Below, piece after piece: positions 8,707 through 62,702 of a stretch of DNA of 64,000 bases (position 1 is the stretch's first letter; the number at the start of each line of letters is the position of its first letter). The notes beneath the pieces were generated by a model. It did not search any database. It was given only the letters and a program-made list of their open reading frames with translations, and had not been told where the DNA came from. The translations under genes were made by a program, and so were the position numbers. The DNA is from Cylindrotheca closterium (taxonomy: Eukaryota > Bacillariophyta > Bacillariophyceae > Bacillariales > Bacillariaceae): positions 186,001 through 250,000 of the forward strand of contig CAKOGP040001881.1 of the NCBI GenBank assembly GCA_933822405.4, in the 5' to 3' direction.

Positions 8707-11700
8707 ATGGCTGACGGAGGAGGTACCTCGAATAATGTCTACATTCGTTCCGACGAATTTGCATGGATTCCAGCTCGTTTGGTTTCCCAAGACAAGGATA
8801 CAGCCAAGGTAGCCATTCCACAATATGAAGCTGAGGAATTCATCATGAGTGATGGAGGAAAAGGAGCTGTTGGTTTCAAGTCTGCTGTAGTTAAGCTCAA
8901 GGATTACCCAAACCACACTCTTCCTCTGCAAAATACTGGAAAGGATGGGGCCCTCTTGGAAGTTGATGATATGGTTGACTTGCCTTATTTGCATGAGGTG
9001 TGTATATATGTCTGATATTGCGAGGTCATTCAATCCGAGACAATTTTGCTGAAGTGTTGTTTCTACTGTGCTAACACTGCATCTCTCTGATTTCGGATCG
9101 ATCTTTTATTTTAGGCTGCAATTTTGTTCAACCTGAAAGCTCGCCACGTTAAAGCTCTTCCATACTCTCGTGTGTCTGATATTGTGATTGCTGTCAATCC
9201 ATACCAATGGTTGACGGAATTGTATGCAGACAGTGTTCGTATGCACTACGCCAAAAAGATTGTGTGGGAGAAGTCAGACCGTGATCCCAGAATCGGACTT
9301 CCTCCTCACATCTACGAGGTGTCTTCGCTATGTTACAAGGGTTTGGCGTTGAATAAGGAGAACCAATCCATTCTTGTTTCTGGTGAATCTGGAGCTGGAA
9401 AGACTGAAACCGTGAAGATTTGCATGAACCACATTGCCACGGTGCAACAAGATCCAAACAACAAGAGTGATGAGGAATCTCTTGTTGTCAAGCGTATTCT
9501 CGACTCCAACCCCTTGCTTGAGGCTTTTGGAAACGCCAAGACGAGACGTAACGATAACTCTTCTCGTTTCGGTAAATACATCATGCTTCAGTTCAATCAC
9601 ATTCCAGGAAAGGATGGCAACCCCCCACGTGCTGAGATGGCGGGTTCAATATCGGAGGTTTACCTCTTGGAAAAGTCTCGTGTTGTTACCAATGAAGATA
9701 TCGAACGTACTTACCACGCCTTCTATCAGCTTCTTGATTCCGCCGATGATGTGAAGAAGGAAATTTGGAAGGGACTTGTTGGAAAGAACGGAGAGTCGTT
9801 CAGATACGTTGGGCCAGCTCCTGAAGTTTTGGTCGATAAAATGACCGATGCTCAATGGTTCCCAATGGTTAAAGAAGCTCTTGCCCTTGTTGGTATTAAG
9901 GGTGAATCCTTTTTGACCCTTTGGCGTTCAATTTCCGCCTGTCTCCAATTGGGTAACTTGGATTTTGCCCCTGATCCAAGTGATGACGAAAAGACTGTGA
10001 TTACATCGAAAACAGAATTCACGGACTTTTGCGAATTGGTTGGTTCTGACGAAAAGCTTATGGAACTTGCCTTCACCGAGCGTACGATTAAGACAAGAGG
10101 TGAAGAGTACAAGGTGCCTTTGAAACATGATATTGCAAGGGAGTCTGCTGATGCCTTTGCCAAAGAGATTTACGCCAAGGTTTTCCTTTGGCTTGTGCGA
10201 GCAATCAACGACGCAACATGCGCAGAAAACAATTACCCAGGTGGTGCCAACCTCACTTACGGCTTGATCGGTCTTTTGGATATTTTCGGATTCGAGTCTT
10301 TCCCCATCAATGGATTCGAACAGATGTGTATCAATTACTGTAACGAAAAGCTTCAGCAAAAGTTCACCAAGGATATTTTCGCAGCCGTTGTGGAAGAATA
10401 CAAGCAAGAAGGCTTGAACTTGGCAGATATCAAATATGATGACAACTCTGATGTTTTGGGTCTCATCGAAGGAAAGCTCGGTCTTATCAAACAACTGAAC
10501 GAAGAGTGTGTCCGTCCTAAGGGTAACGACGGTGCGTTCGTGAGCAAAGCACTCAAAAGTAACAAGACCGTTCCTTGTTTGATCCAAAAGAGAACTTTCG
10601 GTCCCCTCGAATTCGGAATTCACCACTACGCTGGTCCAGTTATCTACCGCGCCCAGGACTTCGTTACTCGTAACACCGATACATTGCCAGGAGACATCAA
10701 GAAGGCAGCCGAAGCCTGTAAGAATGAGATCTTGGCGAAGCATCTGAGCAACAACTCCTCTACGAATACGACGAGCGCCAAGGCAACTGACAAGGGGCCA
10801 AAGCGCGCAAGAAGTAACCTTAGCGCCGATACTGTGATGACACAGTTCAAGAACCAGCTTACTTCCTTGATGACGGGACTTGAAACGACTAAGTCTCGAT
10901 ACATCCGTTGCGTCAAGCCAAACACAGTAAAGAGAAAGCTTGTCATGCAACACATCACTACACTTGAACAGCTTCGATGTGCTGGTGTGGTCGCTGCTGT
11001 TACAATTTCTCGTTCTGCGTTTCCATCCAAGTTGAGTCACGATGAGTTCAAGAACCGATACCACATGCTTAACGAGGCCAAGAAGAAGGGTGGGTATGCA
11101 TCTAAGCAGGAGGAGATTGAGCACATCTGTGAACAGTTGTTGAAGACATTCGAGACGACAAGAAAGGACGGTACTATCGCCAAGGGTTTTGCAATGGGTA
11201 AAACAAAGATTTACTTCAAGGCTGGATGTCTTGAAAGGCTTGAAGGTTCGTTGGCTTTGATTTGGGATAAGTGGGCCATCAAATGTCAAAAGATTGCCCG
11301 TATGTTCCTTGTCAAGAGAATGATCCTCCGCAAGAAGTACGAGAAGTTTGCTTCTGCTGTTCTTCCCATCCAATGTCTGTTCCGTGCTGCCATATCGAAG
11401 AAGAAAACCGCAACTCAGAAAAAGGACAAGAAGAGACTGAAGCGTTTGGGCAAGAAGTCGAAAAAGGCCGCAGTCCGCATCCAAGCTCTTCTCCGCGGAG
11501 CTATCCAACGCCCTAGATACAAGCAAGCGTTGCTGAAGAAGAAGGAGGAAGAAGATCTTGCAAATCAACTCGACAAGATGAAGGATGAGCTCCAACAAGC
11601 TGAAGATAAACGCAAGGCTGAGCTTGAGGATGCTAAATTCCAATTCGAACAGGAAATGGAGGAGTACAAGGAGAAGCTAGAGGATCAATTGCGTGCTGAA

Positions 11701-12300
11701 GCTCAGAAGGTCAACAAGTCTGCGCAACAACAGACTCTTATCGATGAGAGTGGAAAGATTATTGAATACTTGCGAAAGGAGAACATGAAGCTGCGACAAC
11801 AGTGCGAGACCATGAAGAGGGATTACAAGTCGTTGAAGGAAAATAACGCACGATTGATGGAGGCCAATGCTTCTGCCAGCAACTCTTTCAATCAACTGAA
11901 CGAGCACGCAAAGGGATTGAATGCAACCAATGCTCGTTTGATCAAGAATGTTGATACATACAAAAAACAATTGGTCAAGATGAAGGAAGATCTTAAGAAT
12001 CGCCAAGCATTTTACCTTGCAGAAGCTCATGCTCGTGTTGCTTACCAAAAGACACTTGCGCGTATTGTCGCCCAAGTTCAAGACAAATCCAGAGATGCTC
12101 AGTTGGTTGAGGATGTTGTTATTTGGGCCTTGGAGTGTGAAGCCGAAGCCAAGAGTGAACGTGCTGCTTTGGAGAACGCAGGTCAAGCTGCACCTCCAGG
12201 TGCGATTGGCGGAGCCATGCCGGCTTCAGGTGGGGCCAAATCAGGTGGAAAGAAAAAGGCTGATGATTCGGACTCTGACTCGGACTCTGATTCCGACTAA
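8707..12300 (+). CDS. Unconventional myosin heavy chain (myosin A)
   Basis: Exons 8707-8997 and 9115-12300 with a 117-nt phase-0 intron give 1158 residues. An N-terminal SH3-like region (about 15-70) precedes the motor. The P-loop GESGAGKT is at 187-194, switch I NDNSSRFGK starts at 243, switch II DIFGFESF starts at 486, and the actin-binding side has YIRCVKPN. Two to three IQ-type motifs follow (about 815-900, for example AAVRIQALLRGAIQ). Then comes a charged coiled coil (about 905-1060) and a conserved tail piece, AYQKTLARIVAQVQDK...LVEDVVIWALECE. The chain ends in a DSDSDSDSD tail. Myosin B in this window has the same architecture and the same intron position. The motor looks complete, so it should be an actin-based ATPase. 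The cargo is unknown. Confidence 0.95.
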
Positions 12301-27267: not shown

Positions 27268-28647
27268 TCATATATCTTCTTCATCATCATCCACAGTCAA
27301 CACTTTGGCAGTTTGAACATTGATCACAATTGGATCAAACGATACAGGAACCAAGTCGAAGAGTTGCTTGGTCGTTGTTGTGCTTAGGTCACTCAAAACA
27401 AAGGTGTGAAAGGATTCCTTTTTCCGTTCATCCCAGATCACGCACTGAATCTCAACTTCGTTATTCTTAATTTCCTCTTCAATTTCCGGGGGAAATTCCT
27501 TCACTTTTGCTTCATCCACCTGGGGATTGGTGTAGAATGCTTCTTCCAGAGTAGCCGTTTCCGAGACTGGCACTGTCAAATCAATGAATTTACCACTGGA
27601 AACGTTATTGACTCGGAGCTTGGGTGGAAAGCTCTGAAGTGTACCATCTTCGGTAGGAGGAAAGGCTCCCGTTTTCGGTGTTTTCCCACCAAAGTGCACG
27701 GATTCTATGGTTTTGGGGTTCAGTTTGGGTGGCAAATCGGCCAGAGCCGCCCATGACTTGGGATCCCCATCCTGAATGCTCCAGATTTCAAAGCACCATT
27801 TGTCATTTATTTTCGTTTGTTTCCAATAGTCCACAAGATAGAGGTAGTGTTCCACAGTCAAAGCATGAAATAGTTCGGAATTGTCATTGTAAAAGGATCG
27901 CTTGACGAATTCTTCCACTCGTAAGTAGGATGCTTGTCGATTTCCTTCCTTGAATGTGGCATTGTAATTGGTGGATTGCGCGGTACTGAAGGTTTGATCA
28001 TCACTAGGTCCGCCTCCATTGTTATTATGTTTATCCCCTAGCCTCTTTTTGCCACGGATTTTGTGAACCATTTCTGGATCGACAGTGGTCACTCTCCAAG
28101 AAGTATTCTTGGCACCATCTGCATCCTGTAGCTGCAGCTGGTCCATTTTTATGTCGATATCAAAATAGTCTGTCGCTACCCGCTTAATGAGTCCAACAAC
28201 GAGAGGGACCAATAGACTTCCACGGCGTGAATGGTAGTGAACAAGGATAGCACCTTCCTCCTCGTCGTCATCTTCGCTCCAGAATACGGGAGCGACAAAG
28301 CCTTCTGGATAGGCCGCTTGCAGTTGATCATGAAGCGAGTTCAGGTTGGATAACCAATCTCTGAGATTTCCACCAAGGCATTCGAGAACAGAGGAATATC
28401 CGTTGTCTCGTACATAAAAGATGAAAAAGTCACCGAATGCGTATAAGACATCATCGACGCTGGCGCCGAGGACTTCCGATGCCGCCACCACGAGGTCGAC
28501 GGTCTCCTTGTCATGGTAGTATTTGTAACGGAGGAAACCACCATCTGGAGTATTGCAATTAGCCTTCTCTTTGATCTTGTGCCATGCCTCCGGGCCATGT
28601 TGGGTTAAGACCAGGCATTCTACGCAATCATTGATCCAGCCAAACAT
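27268..28647 (-). CDS. H-NOX haem gas-sensor protein with a C-terminal module shared with the neighbouring kinase
   Basis: One exon, 459 residues. The start is the first in-frame ATG (MFGWINDC), which matches the family's M-Y/F-G start. Residues 1-190 are a haem-NO-binding domain: CVECLVLTQHGPEAWHKIK, DLVVAASEVLGASVDDVLYAFG, and NLNSLHDQL with proximal haem ligand His106. Pro114 follows in AAYPEGF, and the propionate-binding Y-x-S-x-R motif is Tyr138, Ser140 and Arg142. The pocket position that is Tyr in O2-binding H-NOX appears hydrophobic (Leu149 or Pro148), which favours NO over O2; this is inferred from a hand alignment with a one-residue insertion. Residues ~343-450 form a module homologous to the three repeats of the divergent kinase gene (IQCVIWDERK, then TTTTKQLFDL). 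No cyclase or kinase domain is attached. The protein is probably cytosolic. Confidence 0.9.
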   Translation of the reverse strand: MFGWINDCVECLVLTQHGPEAWHKIKEKANCNTPDGGFLRYKYYHDKETVDLVVAASEVLGASVDDVLYAFGDFFIFYVRDNGYSSVLECLGGNLRDWLSNLNSLHDQLQAAYPEGFVAPVFWSEDDDEEEGAILVHYHSRRGSLLVPLVVGLIKRVATDYFDIDIKMDQLQLQDADGAKNTSWRVTTVDPEMVHKIRGKKRLGDKHNNNGGGPSDDQTFSTAQSTNYNATFKEGNRQASYLRVEEFVKRSFYNDNSELFHALTVEHYLYLVDYWKQTKINDKWCFEIWSIQDGDPKSWAALADLPPKLNPKTIESVHFGGKTPKTGAFPPTEDGTLQSFPPKLRVNNVSSGKFIDLTVPVSETATLEEAFYTNPQVDEAKVKEFPPEIEEEIKNNEVEIQCVIWDERKKESFHTFVLSDLSTTTTKQLFDLVPVSFDPIVINVQTAKVLTVDDDEEDI

Positions 28648-29125
28648 CTTATGGTGTCGTTTTAGAGCAGTCGGTGGTGTGTGTGTGCGTGTATGGAGGT
28701 TTCTGGAAAATGGTGTGGAGGTGATAGATTTTTCGGGATTTTCCAATTTTTCCAATTAACTCAGAGATATTGTGTACCATAAGTATGAATCATATTTCGG
28801 AGTAATACAATCCACCCGGTGATCTTGAAATTAATTAAGGCCGCATTTCTGATCGGAATAGTTGCGCCATTGAGGTGGTACAAGCCCACGCACATTCATT
28901 CTGCCGCCACCGAAGCGAAGAGCTCAACGAAACTCGTTCGGCACACACACGCGAAAAATCAGGCAGTAAAAGGGATTAGAGCAGCAATCTAAAATCTCAC
29001 ATTCTCTCTCTCTCACTCACTCAATCACTCACACACACACAAACACACCCACACCCACATGAAGGATCAGAGTCCATTTTAACTGTCAATTTTATAAACA
29101 GCAACCAAAATACAACATTTTTAAA
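28648..29125. promoter_or_regulatory. Shared divergent promoter region of the H-NOX and kinase genes
   Basis: 478 bp between two divergent start codons. It holds gt-rich sequence next to the H-NOX start (about 28677-28692) and a CT/CA-rich simple-sequence tract (29001-29059). Shared regulation is inferred from the arrangement; no specific factor site is recognised. Confidence 0.5.
29001..29059 (+). repeat. CT/CA simple-sequence tract
   Basis: Runs of TC, then CACT, then CA and CCCACA follow each other in the 5' leader zone of the kinase gene. Confidence 0.85.
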
Positions 29126-32100
29126 ATGACGACATTCCCCGTTCGAATTACCAACGAAACGTCTGGAAGGTGGTTCCAATTGATGGTTGATGCTTCCGAC
29201 GAAATGACTATATTTGATGCCATCTACGATCGTCATGAGCTCAAGACAAATCATGTGCGGAAATGGAATTCAGACTTGATGAGGGGAATCAAAACAGGCG
29301 CTGTGGAAATATTTATCGAGGTTGTCGACGAGCAATCGTTAATGGCAGTCGAATCCTTCTCCATTGACCAAATGAAGACGACCAACACGAGGGAATTACT
29401 CAAATTCTCTAATGGTGTTTCCAGAACGAGCAACGTGGTCAACCTCCTTCTTCGCTGTCAACAGACACCAGGGGACCAAGCAATGGAAACCACAACAAAC
29501 ACCACAAATACAGCTACCAAAACAGATCCACATCCACTGCACCGCACGTTGCGACCGAAAGAATTTGACGTATCGCTGTCTCCCATGTCGACTGGTGGTG
29601 CGAATCATTTGCGAATTCGAATGACCGCCGATGATTTGAAAAAGGGCATTCTCAAACCCACGACCTCTGACGAATCAATAGAAACTTCGCAACCTTCCGT
29701 TGAGTCGTCTGGCAAGATTAGTGGTACGGTCCGTGTCAGAATAGAAAACGAGAGATCGGGCAGGTCCAAGTATCTACTGGTCACGGTGAACCAAAAACTG
29801 AATCTTTTCGATGCCATTTACAACCACAAAGATGTCAAGAAAGCTAATGTTCGAAAATGGGGAGCGGAAATTGCCAAAGCTGTCAAGTCCAAGACTTCCG
29901 AAATCAGATGCCTACTTTGGGATGAATCCATCCAAGAACCATACCATTCCTTTTCGATAGACGACTTGAAAACCACAAGTACAAAGCAACTGCTTGAGAT
30001 TGCAGCAGAACCAGCGGGTGTCATCAAACTTGTTTTGCGCTGCTACGATATAAACGTTGCTGCTGGCAATAATTCTTCAAGCCAAGCAGGACCATCGCTA
30101 CTGGAAGAAGCTCCTGACGATCAACTACTTTCTTCCATTCGGCGGTCACAATCTACGTCAACAGTTGGGTCAATAGCAGAGGAGGTAGCATCGGTGAAGT
30201 CCAAGAGTCTTGCAGAGCTAGATCTGTTGACACAAGAGAAACGGGAGACGAGGTCTGCCTATTCTGCGAGTCTGGATGATTCTAACCATAGACACTACGC
30301 TGCGAGTCTAGATGATTCACAACAAAGAAACAAGGAGACTATGAGAGTCCGAGTCGTGAACCAGATATCCAAACGACACAAAGATTTGATTGTAGATGTT
30401 AGAGAAGATTTGACCGTCGATAATGCAATATACAACAATCAAGGTGTGAAGCGCGCCAATGTTCGAAAGTGGACTTCGGAAGTAGTGCGCGACGTCAAGA
30501 AAGGAATCCTGGAGGTGCAAATGCATGTTTGGGATTCTGCGTTGGATTCGGCTCGTAAGGTATACACGACAAACGAGCTGTCCTCGCTTAGCACGAGAGA
30601 CCTTCTACAGTCTTCTCTCGACACGGATGATCTAATTGAGCTTCGATTGGTATGCGTCCGAAAGGCGGCGGTGAATGGCAAGGGGGGGTTGGGGCTACTA
30701 CCTACGGATCGACAAACCTCCATGTCGACTCTTGGAACTGATTCCGACGTGAACAGTTCACAAGTACCTCCTTCTCCGACTCTGAACATGCCAGCACGTC
30801 ATATGAGCCTTGCTCACATGAGTACTGGTAATCTCTCGTTGTTGAAAAATGGGTTGGAGCGATCAGTTTTATCTGCAAAGGACCTTAGAAACAATGGGTC
30901 ATCGTCTGCAAAAGACTTGACGAATAATCAACTATTGTCCCACAACAGACCCAGACAGAAATCGAACAGTGCAGTGAATCTCCAGAATTCATCGGGCCAA
31001 CAGGATATCCATAATTTGTCTGGTCAAAAGAATGCGCCATGGTCTCTTCCCCAGAAAACAAAAAAACGAACGCAATTATTCTCTGCTCAGCTCAACGATA
31101 GTCTCTTGATGATGGGGAAAAGTTTACACAAATCATTATCCGACCTTGAGGACGACTTTTTAAATAGGGAATGGGCGGGAATGGGTTCGTCTGGAAGCTT
31201 ACCGAGCCCTGAAGTCGCAAAGAAAAAGCATAGATTCTTGCATCTTTCGAACTTGCCCGGTAAAGGTGAAGCTAAAGTGCTAGAAAAAAAGAAATCTTGG
31301 CGCCGGAAAACTCAAGAGAGGGGCGGGGACTCTCTACTTCGTCAGCTCGTTGACCTTGAAGCTACAAAAAAGGTTCCGCCGAAATTGTCCGATTCCGTCC
31401 ATGCCTCGGCATTCAACCGTGCAGACCAAGCAAAGAAGTTCTGGAAGCTGTGTCAATCCAAAATGATCGTTGAAATGACGGAAGAAGAGGAGAACGAAGT
31501 AACCTTTTCCCAAGAGCTGAAAGAAGATCCAGCCGACTCCCCAAGAAATTCGCTTCCTCGTTTTCCTACAAACGACAGGAAGCCTCCTCACGTTCCAAGT
31601 GGGAAAGTGGACAAGTCAAGAGACTCAAGCGAGAAACGTGTGACTTCGGAAACATACAGGCTGCAACGCTTCTTATCCAGGCCGAATGAAGACTTCGCTC
31701 CACCGGAGACGTCGAAGGCACCAAAGCAGACACAATTTGATGCTCCTCCTCTTATGGAAATTTCAGTGGTGACGAATGGGCACACAAATCAACCTATTCC
31801 ACCTGCTCCAGCTACCGGTCCACCAGGAATCTCCCTTTCTCCTGATGTTGTCAAGGAAGTCTTCCCCTATCATGTTGTCCTTGATTCCGACTTTCGTATT
31901 CTTCAGGTTGGGAACAGTCTGCCTCATCTATTTCGAAGTTTAGACGAGACTGAACCGCCCTTTAACTTCATCGGCCGAATCGTCAGTGATGTTCTCATGT
32001 GCACAGGGCCAGTTCCGATGTACGGGAAATGGGATTGGTCGGTGCTTGAAAAGATGAGAGACAAAACACTTTTCTTTGAATCTGTTCTGACAAACTCATC

Positions 32101-34153
32101 ACGGAACAAAGCAAACCTGAAAGGGACAATCATTGAAGTTTCAGAGTCACCTCATCAGATAATGCTTTCTCTCCTCCCCAACGTCAAAAATCTGACTGAG
32201 CTATCCAATATGGATCTGTCGATGGGAGACTTGCCACTACACAGTTGTCAAAGAGATGCCGTTCTTCTCGGCGAGCATAGCGCATCCGAAGTTAAGTTGA
32301 CCAATCACCTTGACAAGCTTCACAGGGGTCTAATCGACTCCATGGAACAACAAATCAATGACAGAACGGCGGAGCTAGCTATGGCAAATGAAAGTTTGGA
32401 GGAAGCTAACAAGCAAATCCAGAAACAGTCGGCAAGACAACTCGAACACTTTGCTTGCATGTCGCACGAAATTCGAACACCACTCAACTGTATTGTTGGG
32501 ATGTCTTCCATTCTTCTAGAGGAAACCCATGCGAAAGTTGATCCTCCGCATGCCGAATCTATTCAAATGATATACACCAGTGCAGAATTGTTACGGGCAG
32601 TTGTCGACGATGTCCTTGATTATGCAAAGCTTGAGTCTGGTAGTTTCGAGGTGGACATTGGTCGTATTGATCTGCAAGAGAGCCTCGCTGGGGTCGCGCA
32701 TTCGATTTCGCAGAAGATCCAAGAAAAGAATATTAGACTGCGGTGCCACTTTTCACCTGACTTGCCAAGACATACTGAGACTGACTCACGAAGGTTGCAG
32801 CAGGTTCTTTTCAATCTCTTGGGTAATTCTGGCAAATTCTCTAAGAGGAACAGTGTAATCGATCTCAGTGTGGAACTAATAACTCGAAATCACAAAGGGG
32901 GCGTCAAGCGGGATTGCAGGGATTCAGCCATCGTTGATCTAGAAACTTGTGATCTACTTCGATTCTCCGTGAAAGATTATGGAAAGGGGATTGAAAAAAA
33001 GGACTTCGAGACGATTTTCCAGCCCTTTTCGCAGGCAAGCAAGCACACAGCAACTGTTTACGGTGGAACAGGTCTCGGGTTGAGCATCACTTCGCAGCTC
33101 GTGAAACGACTTGGTGGTAGAATCTCTTTGGATTCTGAAGCAGGGAAATTTACGGAGTTTGTTGTAGAGTTACCGTTCGACGGTGTTTTTGTAGACAAGA
33201 AAGCAATACAAGAGAACATGAAAAATGTGGTCATTATTCTTATTCAACCAGCGGAGATCTACGACTACTCGTTCACTTCATATCCACTAATCGATGAACC
33301 CAATCCATTTGGAGACCAAGTTATGGATTATTTCGGCTCACGGGCGGTTTCCTTTGCAAACTTGGAACAACTTCTTGAGCAATCAAACCATTTGAAAACC
33401 GGAAATCGAGATTGTCACTTTGCTCTATTGGTAAACGAAAATTTGTACGACGATCAGTTGCTAAATCTGGTCAAAGGAAATTTGGGAGACCATGATTGTA
33501 CGACGATGACGTTTGGACCAAAGTATGATGTTGAGAGCACAAAAGATGCACATGTGAAGTCAATACGCGGGGTCTTTCCTTGTATACTGCTAGATTTCAT
33601 CTCACAGAATGTGTCAAAAACGAAACAAAATGGTCCGAGGCTCATTAATGACAACTCCCCAGCTGCTGCAGAGATTCCCGTTCAAAGTGGCGACAAGAAG
33701 ACCAACACTATAGCTGGCACCAAAAATAGCCGTCAAGGGAGCAGTAATGCATCGAAAATACTCAAAGAGAATACGAATGAAAATAGTGGAAGTCTGAAGG
33801 TGCTCTATGCTGAAGACAACAAAATTAACCAAAAGGTTCTGACGAGAGTTCTGAATCGAGTTGGTGTCATGGATGTTACAATTGTTGACGACGGTCTGAA
33901 GGCTGTCAATATATCAGAAACTACTGCTTTTGACATAATTTTTATGGATATGCAAATGCCAGTGATGGATGGTATCGAGGCCTGCAATCTCATCATTGAA
34001 AGAGACAAAAATGCAAAGGTAGTCTTCGTTACTGCACATGCTTTGGATGAATTCAAGAACAAAGCCAAGGCAGCAGGGGGCGTAGGTTTCATATCCAAGC
34101 CATTCCGAGTGGAAGATATCAAACAAATACTGCGGCAGTTTAATTTTGAGTAG
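29126..34153 (+). CDS. HNOBA-containing hybrid histidine kinase with three N-terminal repeats shared with the H-NOX protein
   Basis: One exon, 1675 residues, no signal peptide or membrane helix. Three copies of a ~105-residue module occupy about 6-111, 202-308 and 405-513 (conserved DAIY...VRKW, then WDE...HSFSIDDLKTT). After a Ser-rich linker, residues ~895-1030 are a HNOBA domain (FPYHVVLDSDFRILQVGNSL, PMYGKWDWSVLEKMRDKTL), the partner domain of H-NOX in soluble guanylate cyclase. A signalling helix leads to HisKA with SHEIRTPLN (phospho-acceptor His1114). The HATPase_c domain has N-box QQVLFNLLGNSGKF, G1 DYGKGIEK and GGTGLGLSI. Residues ~1365-1500 look like a degenerate receiver. The true receiver spans 1557-1673 (EDNKINQK, phospho-acceptor Asp1608 in FMDMQMPVMDG, and SKPF). 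This is a gas-responsive phosphorelay component by inference. It is divergent from the H-NOX gene. Confidence 0.92.
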   Translation: MTTFPVRITNETSGRWFQLMVDASDEMTIFDAIYDRHELKTNHVRKWNSDLMRGIKTGAVEIFIEVVDEQSLMAVESFSIDQMKTTNTRELLKFSNGVSRTSNVVNLLLRCQQTPGDQAMETTTNTTNTATKTDPHPLHRTLRPKEFDVSLSPMSTGGANHLRIRMTADDLKKGILKPTTSDESIETSQPSVESSGKISGTVRVRIENERSGRSKYLLVTVNQKLNLFDAIYNHKDVKKANVRKWGAEIAKAVKSKTSEIRCLLWDESIQEPYHSFSIDDLKTTSTKQLLEIAAEPAGVIKLVLRCYDINVAAGNNSSSQAGPSLLEEAPDDQLLSSIRRSQSTSTVGSIAEEVASVKSKSLAELDLLTQEKRETRSAYSASLDDSNHRHYAASLDDSQQRNKETMRVRVVNQISKRHKDLIVDVREDLTVDNAIYNNQGVKRANVRKWTSEVVRDVKKGILEVQMHVWDSALDSARKVYTTNELSSLSTRDLLQSSLDTDDLIELRLVCVRKAAVNGKGGLGLLPTDRQTSMSTLGTDSDVNSSQVPPSPTLNMPARHMSLAHMSTGNLSLLKNGLERSVLSAKDLRNNGSSSAKDLTNNQLLSHNRPRQKSNSAVNLQNSSGQQDIHNLSGQKNAPWSLPQKTKKRTQLFSAQLNDSLLMMGKSLHKSLSDLEDDFLNREWAGMGSSGSLPSPEVAKKKHRFLHLSNLPGKGEAKVLEKKKSWRRKTQERGGDSLLRQLVDLEATKKVPPKLSDSVHASAFNRADQAKKFWKLCQSKMIVEMTEEEENEVTFSQELKEDPADSPRNSLPRFPTNDRKPPHVPSGKVDKSRDSSEKRVTSETYRLQRFLSRPNEDFAPPETSKAPKQTQFDAPPLMEISVVTNGHTNQPIPPAPATGPPGISLSPDVVKEVFPYHVVLDSDFRILQVGNSLPHLFRSLDETEPPFNFIGRIVSDVLMCTGPVPMYGKWDWSVLEKMRDKTLFFESVLTNSSRNKANLKGTIIEVSESPHQIMLSLLPNVKNLTELSNMDLSMGDLPLHSCQRDAVLLGEHSASEVKLTNHLDKLHRGLIDSMEQQINDRTAELAMANESLEEANKQIQKQSARQLEHFACMSHEIRTPLNCIVGMSSILLEETHAKVDPPHAESIQMIYTSAELLRAVVDDVLDYAKLESGSFEVDIGRIDLQESLAGVAHSISQKIQEKNIRLRCHFSPDLPRHTETDSRRLQQVLFNLLGNSGKFSKRNSVIDLSVELITRNHKGGVKRDCRDSAIVDLETCDLLRFSVKDYGKGIEKKDFETIFQPFSQASKHTATVYGGTGLGLSITSQLVKRLGGRISLDSEAGKFTEFVVELPFDGVFVDKKAIQENMKNVVIILIQPAEIYDYSFTSYPLIDEPNPFGDQVMDYFGSRAVSFANLEQLLEQSNHLKTGNRDCHFALLVNENLYDDQLLNLVKGNLGDHDCTTMTFGPKYDVESTKDAHVKSIRGVFPCILLDFISQNVSKTKQNGPRLINDNSPAAAEIPVQSGDKKTNTIAGTKNSRQGSSNASKILKENTNENSGSLKVLYAEDNKINQKVLTRVLNRVGVMDVTIVDDGLKAVNISETTAFDIIFMDMQMPVMDGIEACNLIIERDKNAKVVFVTAHALDEFKNKAKAAGGVGFISKPFRVEDIKQILRQFNFE

Positions 34154-59196: not shown

Positions 59197-62100
59197 TTAC
59201 ATGCCAGGGGCAGCAGCTTCGGCGGCAGCCAAGAGTGCCTTTGCCTCAGACTCGCACTCAAGAGCAACACAGACAACGTCCTCCACAAGGTCAGCATCTT
59301 TGCAATTGTCTTGGAAGACATCCAAGATTTGTGCCAAAGTCTTCTGGTATTGCAATCGAATTTGCGCTTCTGCGTTGTAGAATTCTTGCTTCTTCTTCAA
59401 GTCCTCTCGGAGTGAGGCGTTATCTTTCTTGTATTTTTCGATTTGCTTGTTGACGCCGGAAGTGTTGTTAGACATCTTCTTCGATTGATCATTCAACATT
59501 TCGAAAGATTGACCAGCCGATTCGTTGGATGCAACAAGCTTCTCGTTGGTCTCCTTGACCTTCTTCATCTCCTTCTTGGCCTTGTCGTTAGCGCTCTTCA
59601 ACTTCTTGTTCTCCTTTTGCAAGAACGCAATCAATTTTCCACTCTCTTCGAGCTTGGTCTTTTGGGCAGCAGCTTGCTTAGCTGGTTCTCTTGCTGCTGG
59701 TTTGATCTCATTCTCGAGTTTGTCGCGAAGTTCTTGAGCCTCAGTCTTGGCCGATTCAACACGTTCAACAGCCTCATCCTTGCGTTCCTTGAAGCGACCT
59801 TCAGCCTCCTTGATTTGCCCTGCGACTTCGTCCAAACGTTGATCGTACTTGTTGTATTCCTTTTTGGCAGAATACTCGCGATCCTCGATTTCGGCCTTCA
59901 ATTGCTGTTCGAAAGCCTTTTCTTCGGCTTCCTTGGCCTGCTTTTCGAGTCGCTTTGCTTGAACAATCTTCATCTTCTCGACCTCTTTCTTGGCCTCCTT
60001 CTTAGCCTTGACACAACGACAGAATCTCTGGATGATGAATACACCCTCCTTTCTGGCCTTGGCACTACCGACAAGCTTCTTGCGGGCCAAGAAAGTACGG
60101 GCAACACGCTGCATTTGGATGGCATGAACATCAAGTCCAGCAGAGCGGTGAGATTCAAGGAATTCCAAGGCTCCGAATTTGAAGTAAGACCTTGTCTTTC
60201 CAACACAGAAAATAGTGACTGGTTTGCCTGTCTTTGGATCATTCTCAGCAAGTGGTGCAAGTGCACAAGCCAATAAAGCCTGACAATCATGCTGAAGCTT
60301 GACTGGTTGATCCATATCCTTAGTTCCCTTAGATGGGAACTTCTCCTTGTCCCACATCTGCCAGAACTTGAATCGAACAACACTGTTGTCCATGCGGTTA
60401 GGGAAAGCAGACCGAGAAAGTGTGACAGCAGCGACAACACCGGCACAACGGAGCTGTTCAATGGTAGTGACATGTTGCATAAGAACGGGCTTCTTGGGCT
60501 TGTTTGGTTTGATACAACGGATGTAACGAGAGTTCGTTGTTTTCAACATTGCCATCAGCGATGCAAGTTGACCCTTGTATTTCGCCCACACGGTTGGCGA
60601 AACAAGATTAGACTTGGCTCTTCTTGGTGCACCACGCGAAGGTTCAGCGGCTGCAGCCTTCTTGTTGTCGAAGTTAGTACACGAGTCGTTGGTCATGTGC
60701 TTCGCAAGAATTTCGTTCGAAGAGAGAGAAGCGGCTTCAGACAAGTCGGCGGGAAGTGTCTCTTGGTTGGCACTGACGAATCCTTCAGCATCGTAAAGCA
60801 CCTTTCCAGCGTAATGGTGAATACCGAATCCACGTCTGTTGGTCTTGTTTGCAAACAAACAAGGGGACTTCTTGTTCGCAGCAAGAGCCTTGGTGACGAA
60901 GGCTTGATCTTCTCCCTTAGGACGGACACATTCTTCATTCAACATAGCAAGAAGACCAGTCTTTCCTTCGATCAAATCCAACACATCGGTGTTATCATCG
61001 TAAGAGATCTCATCAAGAGGAATACCCTCCTTCTCGTATTCCAGTTGCACAGAGCGAAAAATGTCCTCTGTGAACTTGGCTTGAAGCTTCTCGTTACAGT
61101 AGTTGATACAAAGTTGCTCGAAACGGTTGCGGACAAATGACTCGAAACCGAAGATATCAAGAAGACCAATGATGCCGAAATCCTTCATGGATCCCGACTT
61201 GTAGTTCAATTCGGCGGCAGTGGCATCATTAATACAACGCACAAGCCACAAGAAAGCACGACTGTAAATTTCCTTGGCAAAAGACTCGGTGGCTTCACGG
61301 GCGACCTTGGGGTTCAATGGGACCTTGTATGTTTCGTTACGGGTTTTCATGGTTCTCTCTGTGAAACAGACTTCAAGGATATTTTGATCGATGCACATAA
61401 GCTCACAGAGATCGGCAAATTCCTTCTTGCTGGAAACCTCGGACTTATCATCATCTCCTGCCTTCGGCTCGAAAGTGATGTTTCCCATTTGAAGCACCAT
61501 GATAATCGCTTGCATCAGGGTCATGAGTTGATCATCAACAACACCAACCTCACCAAGCGTTGTTACTGTGTTGGCAAAGTGATCGGCATCAGACATGCCC
61601 TCGATGGTGGTGGTGCAAGCTTCACCAACAAACATGAATTGTTCGTTGGTAGTTCCAGCAAGTTTGCTCCAGTAGGTGGTCTTATCCTTTGCAGCAATGA
61701 TTTGGTAGAAGATATGGTAGGTACGTTCACCAGGTCCGTGCTCAGAAATACGATTCTTCTCCAACAAGTAGGCTTCACACTTGGATCCGGCAAGTGTACA
61801 AGTGGCCTTGTCACGAGAACGGAATTCTTGCTCAGCCTTGGTACCCATATCAAACTGAAGCTGAATGTATTTTCCGAAACGAGAGGAGTTATCGTTACGG
61901 ACAGTCTTGGCGTTTCCGAAGGCCTCAAGGAGAGGGTTGGATCGGACAACACGCTCAAGGATGGGAGAGGTTTCCATGCTACCAGCATTAGGTCCTTGCT
62001 GACAACTAGCAATGTGATTCATGGCAATCTTCACAGTCTCGGTCTTTCCAGCACCAGATTCACCAGAGACAAGGATAGACTGATCCTTACCCCCAAAGGC

Positions 62101-62702
62101 AAGTCCAGTGTAACACAGAGAGGAAGTCTCGTAGACGTGAGGATCCACGTCATCACGAGGATCACCACCACCAGCATCAGGATCGTATTCCCAAACCAAG
62201 ATACGAGAATAACGATTTCGGACCTTTTCGGTGTAGATATCAGTGAACCATTGGAAAGGGTTGACGGCAATAATAATATCTCCAGTACGAGTGTAAGGCA
62301 ATCCCTTTCCGTGACGGTATTTCAAGTTGTACAAGATACCAGCCTGAAAAGATGAAGAATCATCTGTTAGAAAAGAAGCTCTCTCAAACAAAAAATCAGA
62401 AAGATCTGGGTGCATACCTCGTGCAAAAATGTGAGCTGACACATATCAGGGAAAGGCTTCAAGTGACCCGCTCCGTCAACGTTTTGCAAAGGAAGAACGC
62501 CCTTGTTGTAGTCCTTCAAGGGAACGCTATCTTCTTCCCATTCCTTGGCACCTGATCCACCGTCACAAAGAATCGATTGTTCATCACGATATTTTGGAAC
62601 CTTCACGAAAGCCTTTTTGTCGTCATTGCCAGTCTTGATGGCTGGGATCCATGCGTACTCCGGATCCCGGATGAAGACATATGATTCTTGATCACCACCC
62701 AT
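59197..62702 (-). CDS. Unconventional myosin heavy chain (myosin B), paralogue of myosin A
   Basis: Exons 62702-62418 and 62343-59197 with a 74-nt phase-0 intron give 1143 residues. The start is the ATG of MGGDQESY. The P-loop GESGAGKT is at about 189, switch I is NDNSSRFGK, switch II is DIFGFESF, and YIRCIKPN lies in the lower 50-kDa region. Two IQ-like motifs follow (VHAIQMQRVARTFLARKKL and VFIIQRFCRCVKAKKE). Then come a long charged coiled coil and the tail block QYQKTLAQILDVFQDN...LVEDVVCVALECESEAK, which is shared with myosin A. The intron follows the same Leu-His-Glu triplet as in myosin A. It lacks the DSDSD tail of myosin A. The motor looks complete. Confidence 0.95.

Follow-up and report, generated by a model that had tools for sequence, protein, structure and literature searches.

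The window analysed here is a 64,000-nucleotide stretch of the genome of the diatom Cylindrotheca closterium, and the locus of interest within it is a divergent gene pair, the start codons of which lie 478 bp apart. On the minus strand, a single open frame (27268..28647) encodes an H-NOX protein of 459 aa; on the plus strand, another single open frame (29126..34153) encodes a hybrid histidine kinase of 1675 aa, and the intergenic stretch between both start codons occupies positions 28648..29125. The head-to-head layout of an H-NOX gene and a hybrid-kinase gene, as described in an initial sequence-only reading, is borne out by open frames that begin and end exactly at these coordinates.

The H-NOX protein opens with the HNOB/H-NOX haem domain (aa 3-169; 28141..28641, minus strand), which is matched by Pfam PF07700 with an E-value of 3.7e-37. 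The haem site is complete, all of the residues previously named (His106, Pro114 and Tyr138-x-Ser140-x-Arg142) being found at the positions claimed, and in an alignment they coincide with those of the haem site in H-NOX from human, Manduca and Nostoc. In the same alignment, Leu149 occupies the position of a human Ile, presumably Ile145, and no Tyr is present there. O2-binding H-NOX proteins typically carry a distal Tyr, and its absence at the Leu149 position suggests that the pocket may be NO-selective. The haem domain is followed by a middle segment (aa ~243-345; 27613..27921, minus strand) with no significant Pfam match, to which similar stretches are found at two other places in the genome (C86 and C38), and by a C-terminal copy of a ~95-aa repeat (aa ~341-435; 27343..27627, minus strand), also devoid of a Pfam match.

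The hybrid kinase, encoded on the plus strand throughout, carries three copies of the same repeat, namely copy 1 (aa ~1-95; 29126..29410), copy 2 (aa ~201-295; 29726..30010) and copy 3 (aa ~403-497; 30332..30616). The PAS-like, H-NOX-associated HNOBA domain follows (aa 903-1078; 31832..32359; Pfam E 2.6e-18), and then HisKA (aa 1107-1172; 32444..32641; E 3.6e-14) with the phospho-acceptor His1114 in an SHEIRTPLN box, HATPase_c (aa 1220-1352; 32783..33181; E 2.4e-21) with its ATP-binding boxes, and a receiver of the Response_reg family (aa 1559-1669; 33800..34132; E 2.1e-24) with Asp1608. Thus, the protein has the HisKA His, the ATP boxes and the receiver Asp of a hybrid histidine kinase, and the assignment of an HNOBA domain, His1114 and Asp1608 to it holds both for the domains, by Pfam, and for the residues. 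Indeed, the profile searches proposed as a check (H-NOX, HNOBA, HisKA, HATPase and receiver) all gave matches, and every Pfam match in the two proteins exceeds the Pfam cut-off, while no Guanylate_cyc or phosphodiesterase domain is matched by Pfam in either of them. Among known structures, the window HNOBA gives a weak match (E 0.049) to PDB 2p04, a ‘signal transduction histidine kinase’, which we take to be the H-NOXA (HNOBA) domain of a Nostoc kinase.

That the pair resides in a eukaryote, as had been assumed, is supported by the content of the window, 9 of the 10 open reading frames scanned having Pfam matches that include two myosins, KRR1, a PP2A-type HEAT protein and a KAT11/bromodomain protein; the two myosin motor-domain genes lie at 9241-12300 (plus strand) and 59197-62415 (minus strand). 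The genome searched (a 47.6-Mb assembly of 572 contigs) is recognized as that of a diatom by its silicon transporters: the family is matched 12 times, nine of these matches spanning almost the whole profile, as opposed to none above the cut-off in 14 control genomes, one of which gave a sub-cut-off match. Bacterial contamination or transfer is rejected in view of the neighbouring genes, of relatives in the same genome and of the trees described below. Likewise, misassembly of a single fused gene was considered and rejected: each open frame is complete, with its own start, stop and extra domains, so that two proteins are encoded regardless of the local order, which is known from one assembly, as the pair is known from one species.

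The genome contains 15 HNOB matches, each with an HNOBA match nearby. At all 14 loci outside the window, the HNOBA match lies on the strand of the HNOB match and is followed by guanylate-cyclase and PDEase_I matches, so that a large family of H-NOX cyclase-phosphodiesterase loci emerges; HNOB and HNOBA share a single open frame at five of the 14, and fused cyclase chains in this diatom are inferred from the layout of the loci. The window is the sole locus of the 15 with HNOB and HNOBA on opposite strands, and its HNOBA is the only one with a kinase downstream. Within the cyclase-phosphodiesterase family, two nearly identical loci stand in tandem (C101:460731-469978; L035 and L037), and in two other H-NOX domains (C330:246092-246604 and 253811-254314; L042 and L038) the haem His is replaced (by Ile and Phe), which suggests that these may be haem-free, alpha-subunit-like partners. 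In other work on diatoms, a soluble guanylate cyclase is reported to be induced when the cells reproduce sexually (PMC5485032), and sex pheromone is reported to induce a guanylyl cyclase/phosphodiesterase that is predicted to be transmembrane (PMC4726125).

The kinship of the sensor domains was addressed with trees of HNOB (40 rows: the window, 14 diatom and two animal sequences, 22 of 80 bacterial loci after removal of near-copies, and Alr2278), of HNOBA (33 rows: the window, those 8 of the 14 diatom cyclase HNOBAs that could be read without interruption, three animal and 21 of 67 bacterial sequences) and of both domains concatenated (31 rows). In the HNOB tree, the window forms the sister lineage of all 14 HNOBs from diatom cyclases, the group formed by window and diatom cyclases being supported at 100/99, the diatom cyclases alone at 99/96 and all of these with the animals at 100/98. 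The HNOBA tree likewise unites window and diatom cyclases (100/99) and these with the animals (100/96); the diatom cyclases without the window reach only 80/92, which makes a sister as opposed to a nested placement less sure for this domain. The concatenated tree gives 100/100 for window plus diatom cyclases and 100/99 for the diatom cyclases alone. A group of all cyclases with the pair outside is rejected (AU p 0.0069 for HNOB, 0.00135 for HNOBA and 6.5e-5 for the concatenated set), as is a group of window and animals (AU p 0.0185 for HNOB and 0.0208 for HNOBA); the clades for these tests were picked after the first trees had been seen, and non-diatom cyclases are represented in the trees by two animal species. 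The placement agrees with features of the alignment, where the window and the 14 diatom cyclases share two features, one additional residue behind YxSxR-x and, following the haem loop, Phe-Trp (Tyr-Trp in one cyclase), neither of which is seen in the two animal and four bacterial rows. Between the kinase HNOBA and the 8 cyclase HNOBAs compared, identity is 37-45%. The trees thus place both sensor domains in the cyclase lineage, and neither trees nor AU tests yield a common descent with the bacterial pairs that leaves the cyclases out.

The kinase core has a different kinship: identity is 55% with the core of C551 and 49% with the cores of C478 and C457, three hybrid kinases of the same genome, compared with 30-39% for the seven HNOBA kinases from bacteria included in the tree. 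In a tree of 21 of 36 sequences retained after thinning, several of which have long branches, the window kinase clusters with C551, C478 and C457 (100/100) to the exclusion of the bacterial HNOBA kinases, while a fourth kinase of this genome, C533, is placed among bacterial rows. Uniting the window kinase with the HNOBA kinases of bacteria is rejected (p 6e-5); given the long branches and bacterial rows that do not themselves form a single group, the 100/100 grouping is the better evidence. The similarity to C551 starts at aa 1066 and the HNOBA domain ends near aa 1078, which puts the join between HNOBA and kinase near the helix that precedes HisKA. In the stretches fetched upstream of the C551 and C478 kinases, no HNOBA or other input domain was found above the Pfam cut-off.

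A free H-NOX next to an HNOBA-containing gene is familiar from prokaryotes. When bacterial and archaeal genomes were scanned with an H-NOX alignment, 98 relatives were confirmed, of which the best 80 were analysed; the set is biased towards relatives of the query, largely cyanobacteria, and gives no rate for all bacteria. In 73 of these best 80 loci, an HNOBA open reading frame (profile E <= 1e-3; some of them short or running off the contig) adjoins the H-NOX gene on the same strand, the seven loci without one being L071, L080, L097, L117, L125, L126 and L129. Pfam confirms HNOBA in all nine bacterial frames sampled, seven of which are histidine kinases and two GGDEF-EAL proteins (L052 and L092). 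The sequence-only reading had held that bacterial H-NOX-regulated kinases usually lack HNOBA, a premise that finds no support in this set, where HNOBA occurs at 73 of the best 80 loci. Since, in addition, seven of the nine frames sampled are kinases, the split H-NOX/HNOBA kinase as such is a known bacterial kind; Iyer et al. 2003 are said to have defined HNOB, HNOBA and their bacterial gene pairs. Published examples (PMC2576301) are a Nostoc H-NOX encoded in an operon together with a histidine kinase and, for a Nostoc kinase, the solved structure of H-NOXA (HNOBA). Variations on this theme are seen among the loci, with H-NOX lying between two same-strand HNOBA frames in two cyanobacteria (L050:5065-9989 and L052:4972-9991). 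The upstream HNOBA frame of L052 is an HNOBA-GAF-PAS-GGDEF-EAL protein by Pfam, the upstream HNOBA frame of L050 being recognized by profile, and one H-NOX may serve two outputs at these loci. At a Tolypothrix locus (L106:7350-11318), the partner of H-NOX combines HNOBA, PAS, GAF, HisKA and HATPase with two receiver stretches and an Hpt domain in a single chain.

The diatom pair can be set against three kinds of known systems. Like the cyanobacterial operon of the Nostoc Alr2278 type, in which a free haem-type H-NOX adjoins an HNOBA-HisKA-HATPase gene, it combines a separate sensor with an HNOBA kinase, and the receiver of the diatom kinase has equivalents in the bacterial HNOBA kinases L106, L107, L113 and L121. 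Unlike in the bacterial pairs, which lie on the same strand at all 73 HNOBA loci among the best 80, the diatom genes are divergent; HNOBA is internal (from aa 903) rather than at or near the N-terminus; the ~95-aa repeat is an extra feature; and the affinities of the domains are with eukaryotic and diatom ones. The animal and diatom soluble guanylate cyclases (HNOB-HNOBA-cyclase, here also with PDEase_I) are closest to both sensor domains, but differ from the pair, in which H-NOX and HNOBA are on separate chains, the output is a histidine kinase and cyclase and phosphodiesterase domains are absent. Finally, in HnoX-HnoK of Shewanella oneidensis and Vibrio cholerae, a free H-NOX also regulates a histidine kinase, which it inhibits when NO is bound (PMC8846402); in the text consulted, no HNOBA is mentioned for HnoK. 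In the literature searched, largely that available without subscription, no H-NOX/HNOBA kinase is reported for a diatom.

The ~95-aa repeat common to both partners, of which the H-NOX protein has one copy and the kinase three, was not part of the earlier description of the pair. It has no significant match in Pfam, and attempts at fold assignment gave no result. With one kinase copy as the query, at least 28 matches were found in at least 13 reading frames on eight contigs, and at least 11 frames beyond the pair carry it, so that it is not private to the two genes. By profile, it was found in none of the 14 cyclase loci fetched and in none of the 80 bacterial loci; viral contigs, searched for both H-NOX and the repeat, gave pattern matches but no confirmed relatives. 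With a typical diatom gene number of ~12,000, its presence in two neighbours by chance would be unlikely, about two in a thousand, an estimate to be tempered by the presence on C101 of four repeat-bearing frames inside ~20 kb, which shows that local spread occurs. A tree of 21 copies leaves the relations within the family without resolution; the closest row by path to the H-NOX copy is kinase copy 2, without support, and in a search with kinase copy 2 the copies on C101 and C39 outscore that of the H-NOX protein. It is possible that one ancestral repeat array was split between both genes. Elsewhere in the genome, open reading frames with one to seven copies and no Pfam match (L047, L048 and L049, on C101, C39 and C212, respectively) possibly represent a scaffold family of this diatom.

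The reading favoured here, with a probability of about 55%, is that the pair is an NO-responsive two-protein gas sensor, in which H-NOX binds to the kinase at HNOBA, and the layout of which re-arose from parts of the diatom cyclases and of the diatom's own kinases. For adjacent genes of this content, an H-NOX/HNOBA arrangement in trans is the natural reading, from which physical contact and an NO response of the pair may be inferred. The free H-NOX protein would, to judge by its residues, bind NO at the haem and dock on the kinase HNOBA in the way that the two domains cooperate within guanylate cyclase. Through the helix that connects HNOBA with HisKA, NO binding would then alter how His1114 is autophosphorylated and how phosphate passes to Asp1608, and the repeats on both proteins would probably tether them together or to a common scaffold. 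In the cyclases, the coiled coil straightens on activation. The H-NOX and PAS domains are reported to rotate at that point (PMC6839917), and by analogy NO-loaded H-NOX most likely acts on the kinase via HNOBA and the helix that follows. As a first guess, the effect of NO on the kinase would be inhibition, since NO-bound H-NOX inhibits the partner kinase in HnoX/HnoK.

As for the NO itself, three NO synthase matches, probably two genes, are found in the genome, which makes an internal source possible. NO synthase matches lie close together on opposite strands at C478:44786-52040, and C478 also carries a hybrid kinase (at 177 kb) and a repeat-bearing frame (at 202 kb). A single Hpt match is found, within another hybrid kinase, in a search from which introns and divergence can hide others.

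With regard to origin, both sensor domains would, as the trees support, have come from the guanylate-cyclase family of the diatom lineage and the kinase core from the diatom's own hybrid kinases, and the bacterial layout of a free H-NOX and an HNOBA kinase would have arisen anew from cyclase parts, neither inherited nor imported. Since bacteria fall outside, and cyclases are fused in animals and, as inferred from the loci, in diatoms, the simplest history would be that a cyclase-type H-NOX-HNOBA sensor was divided, its HNOBA half became part of a resident hybrid kinase and the repeats were added to both; independent cyclase fusions in animals and diatoms would be less simple. The diatom would thus seem to have invented the bacterial layout a second time, with parts of its own. 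A fuller version, in which a split cyclase sensor with one half grafted on a resident kinase makes a eukaryotic two-protein NO receptor, keeping the contact in trans, using the repeat as a docking module and converging on the bacterial layout, is advanced tentatively, at somewhat less than even odds.

The alternatives differ in which of these links they give up. The two neighbours could be unconnected, the H-NOX protein serving a cyclase-phosphodiesterase and the kinase HNOBA being a dimerization domain only. The two cyclase H-NOX domains without the haem His (Ile and Phe) could conceivably use a separate haem H-NOX, and adjacency is known from one genome only; moreover, the H-NOXA region takes part in guanylate cyclase heterodimerization and adopts a dimeric PAS fold in a Nostoc kinase (PMC2576301). 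Such a lack of connection seems rather unlikely, however, as adjacency, an uncommon repeat in common and matching tree positions tie both genes together, and every cyclase locus has an H-NOX domain of its own. The role of this region in cyclase heterodimerization (PMC2576301) and the 37-45% identity to cyclase HNOBAs noted above also lend something to the idea that the kinase HNOBA pairs with those of the cyclase-phosphodiesterases, the pair mainly linking NO-cGMP to two-component signalling, but this would leave the adjacent free H-NOX and the repeat in both proteins unexplained and is regarded as improbable.

Descent matters for a further possibility, a relic of, or transfer from, a bacterial H-NOX/HNOBA-kinase pair, the cyclases themselves having descended from such a pair. 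It would account for a layout that is the same as the bacterial one and would need no change of output domain in the window lineage; under the models used, it is nevertheless rejected by the trees through the three AU tests of the pair outside all cyclases, and with a kinase core that goes with diatom and not bacterial HNOBA kinases, and a divergent order where bacteria have the same strand, it must be considered very improbable. A sensor that responds to O2, CO or redox state instead of NO is a different matter, the ligand choice of H-NOX not being fixed by sequence alone, and bacterial O2-sensing and redox-responsive H-NOX proteins being reported (PMC9814294 and PMC7108781). The Leu149 in place of a Tyr at the human Ile position and the NO synthases in the genome speak against it, and its probability is judged to be low.

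Should the preferred reading of an NO-responsive H-NOX/HNOBA-kinase pair be correct, NO sensing in a eukaryote would feed not only into cGMP but also into a histidine-kinase phosphorelay, and the H-NOX/HNOBA contact would be an interchangeable part between two chains. Within one large cyclase chain this contact is difficult to study, and a pair split by nature opens it to direct testing; in the fuller version given above, the two proteins would offer a natural minimal system for how H-NOX communicates with HNOBA. For the diatom, which has NO synthase genes, the pair would be a second route for an NO signal.
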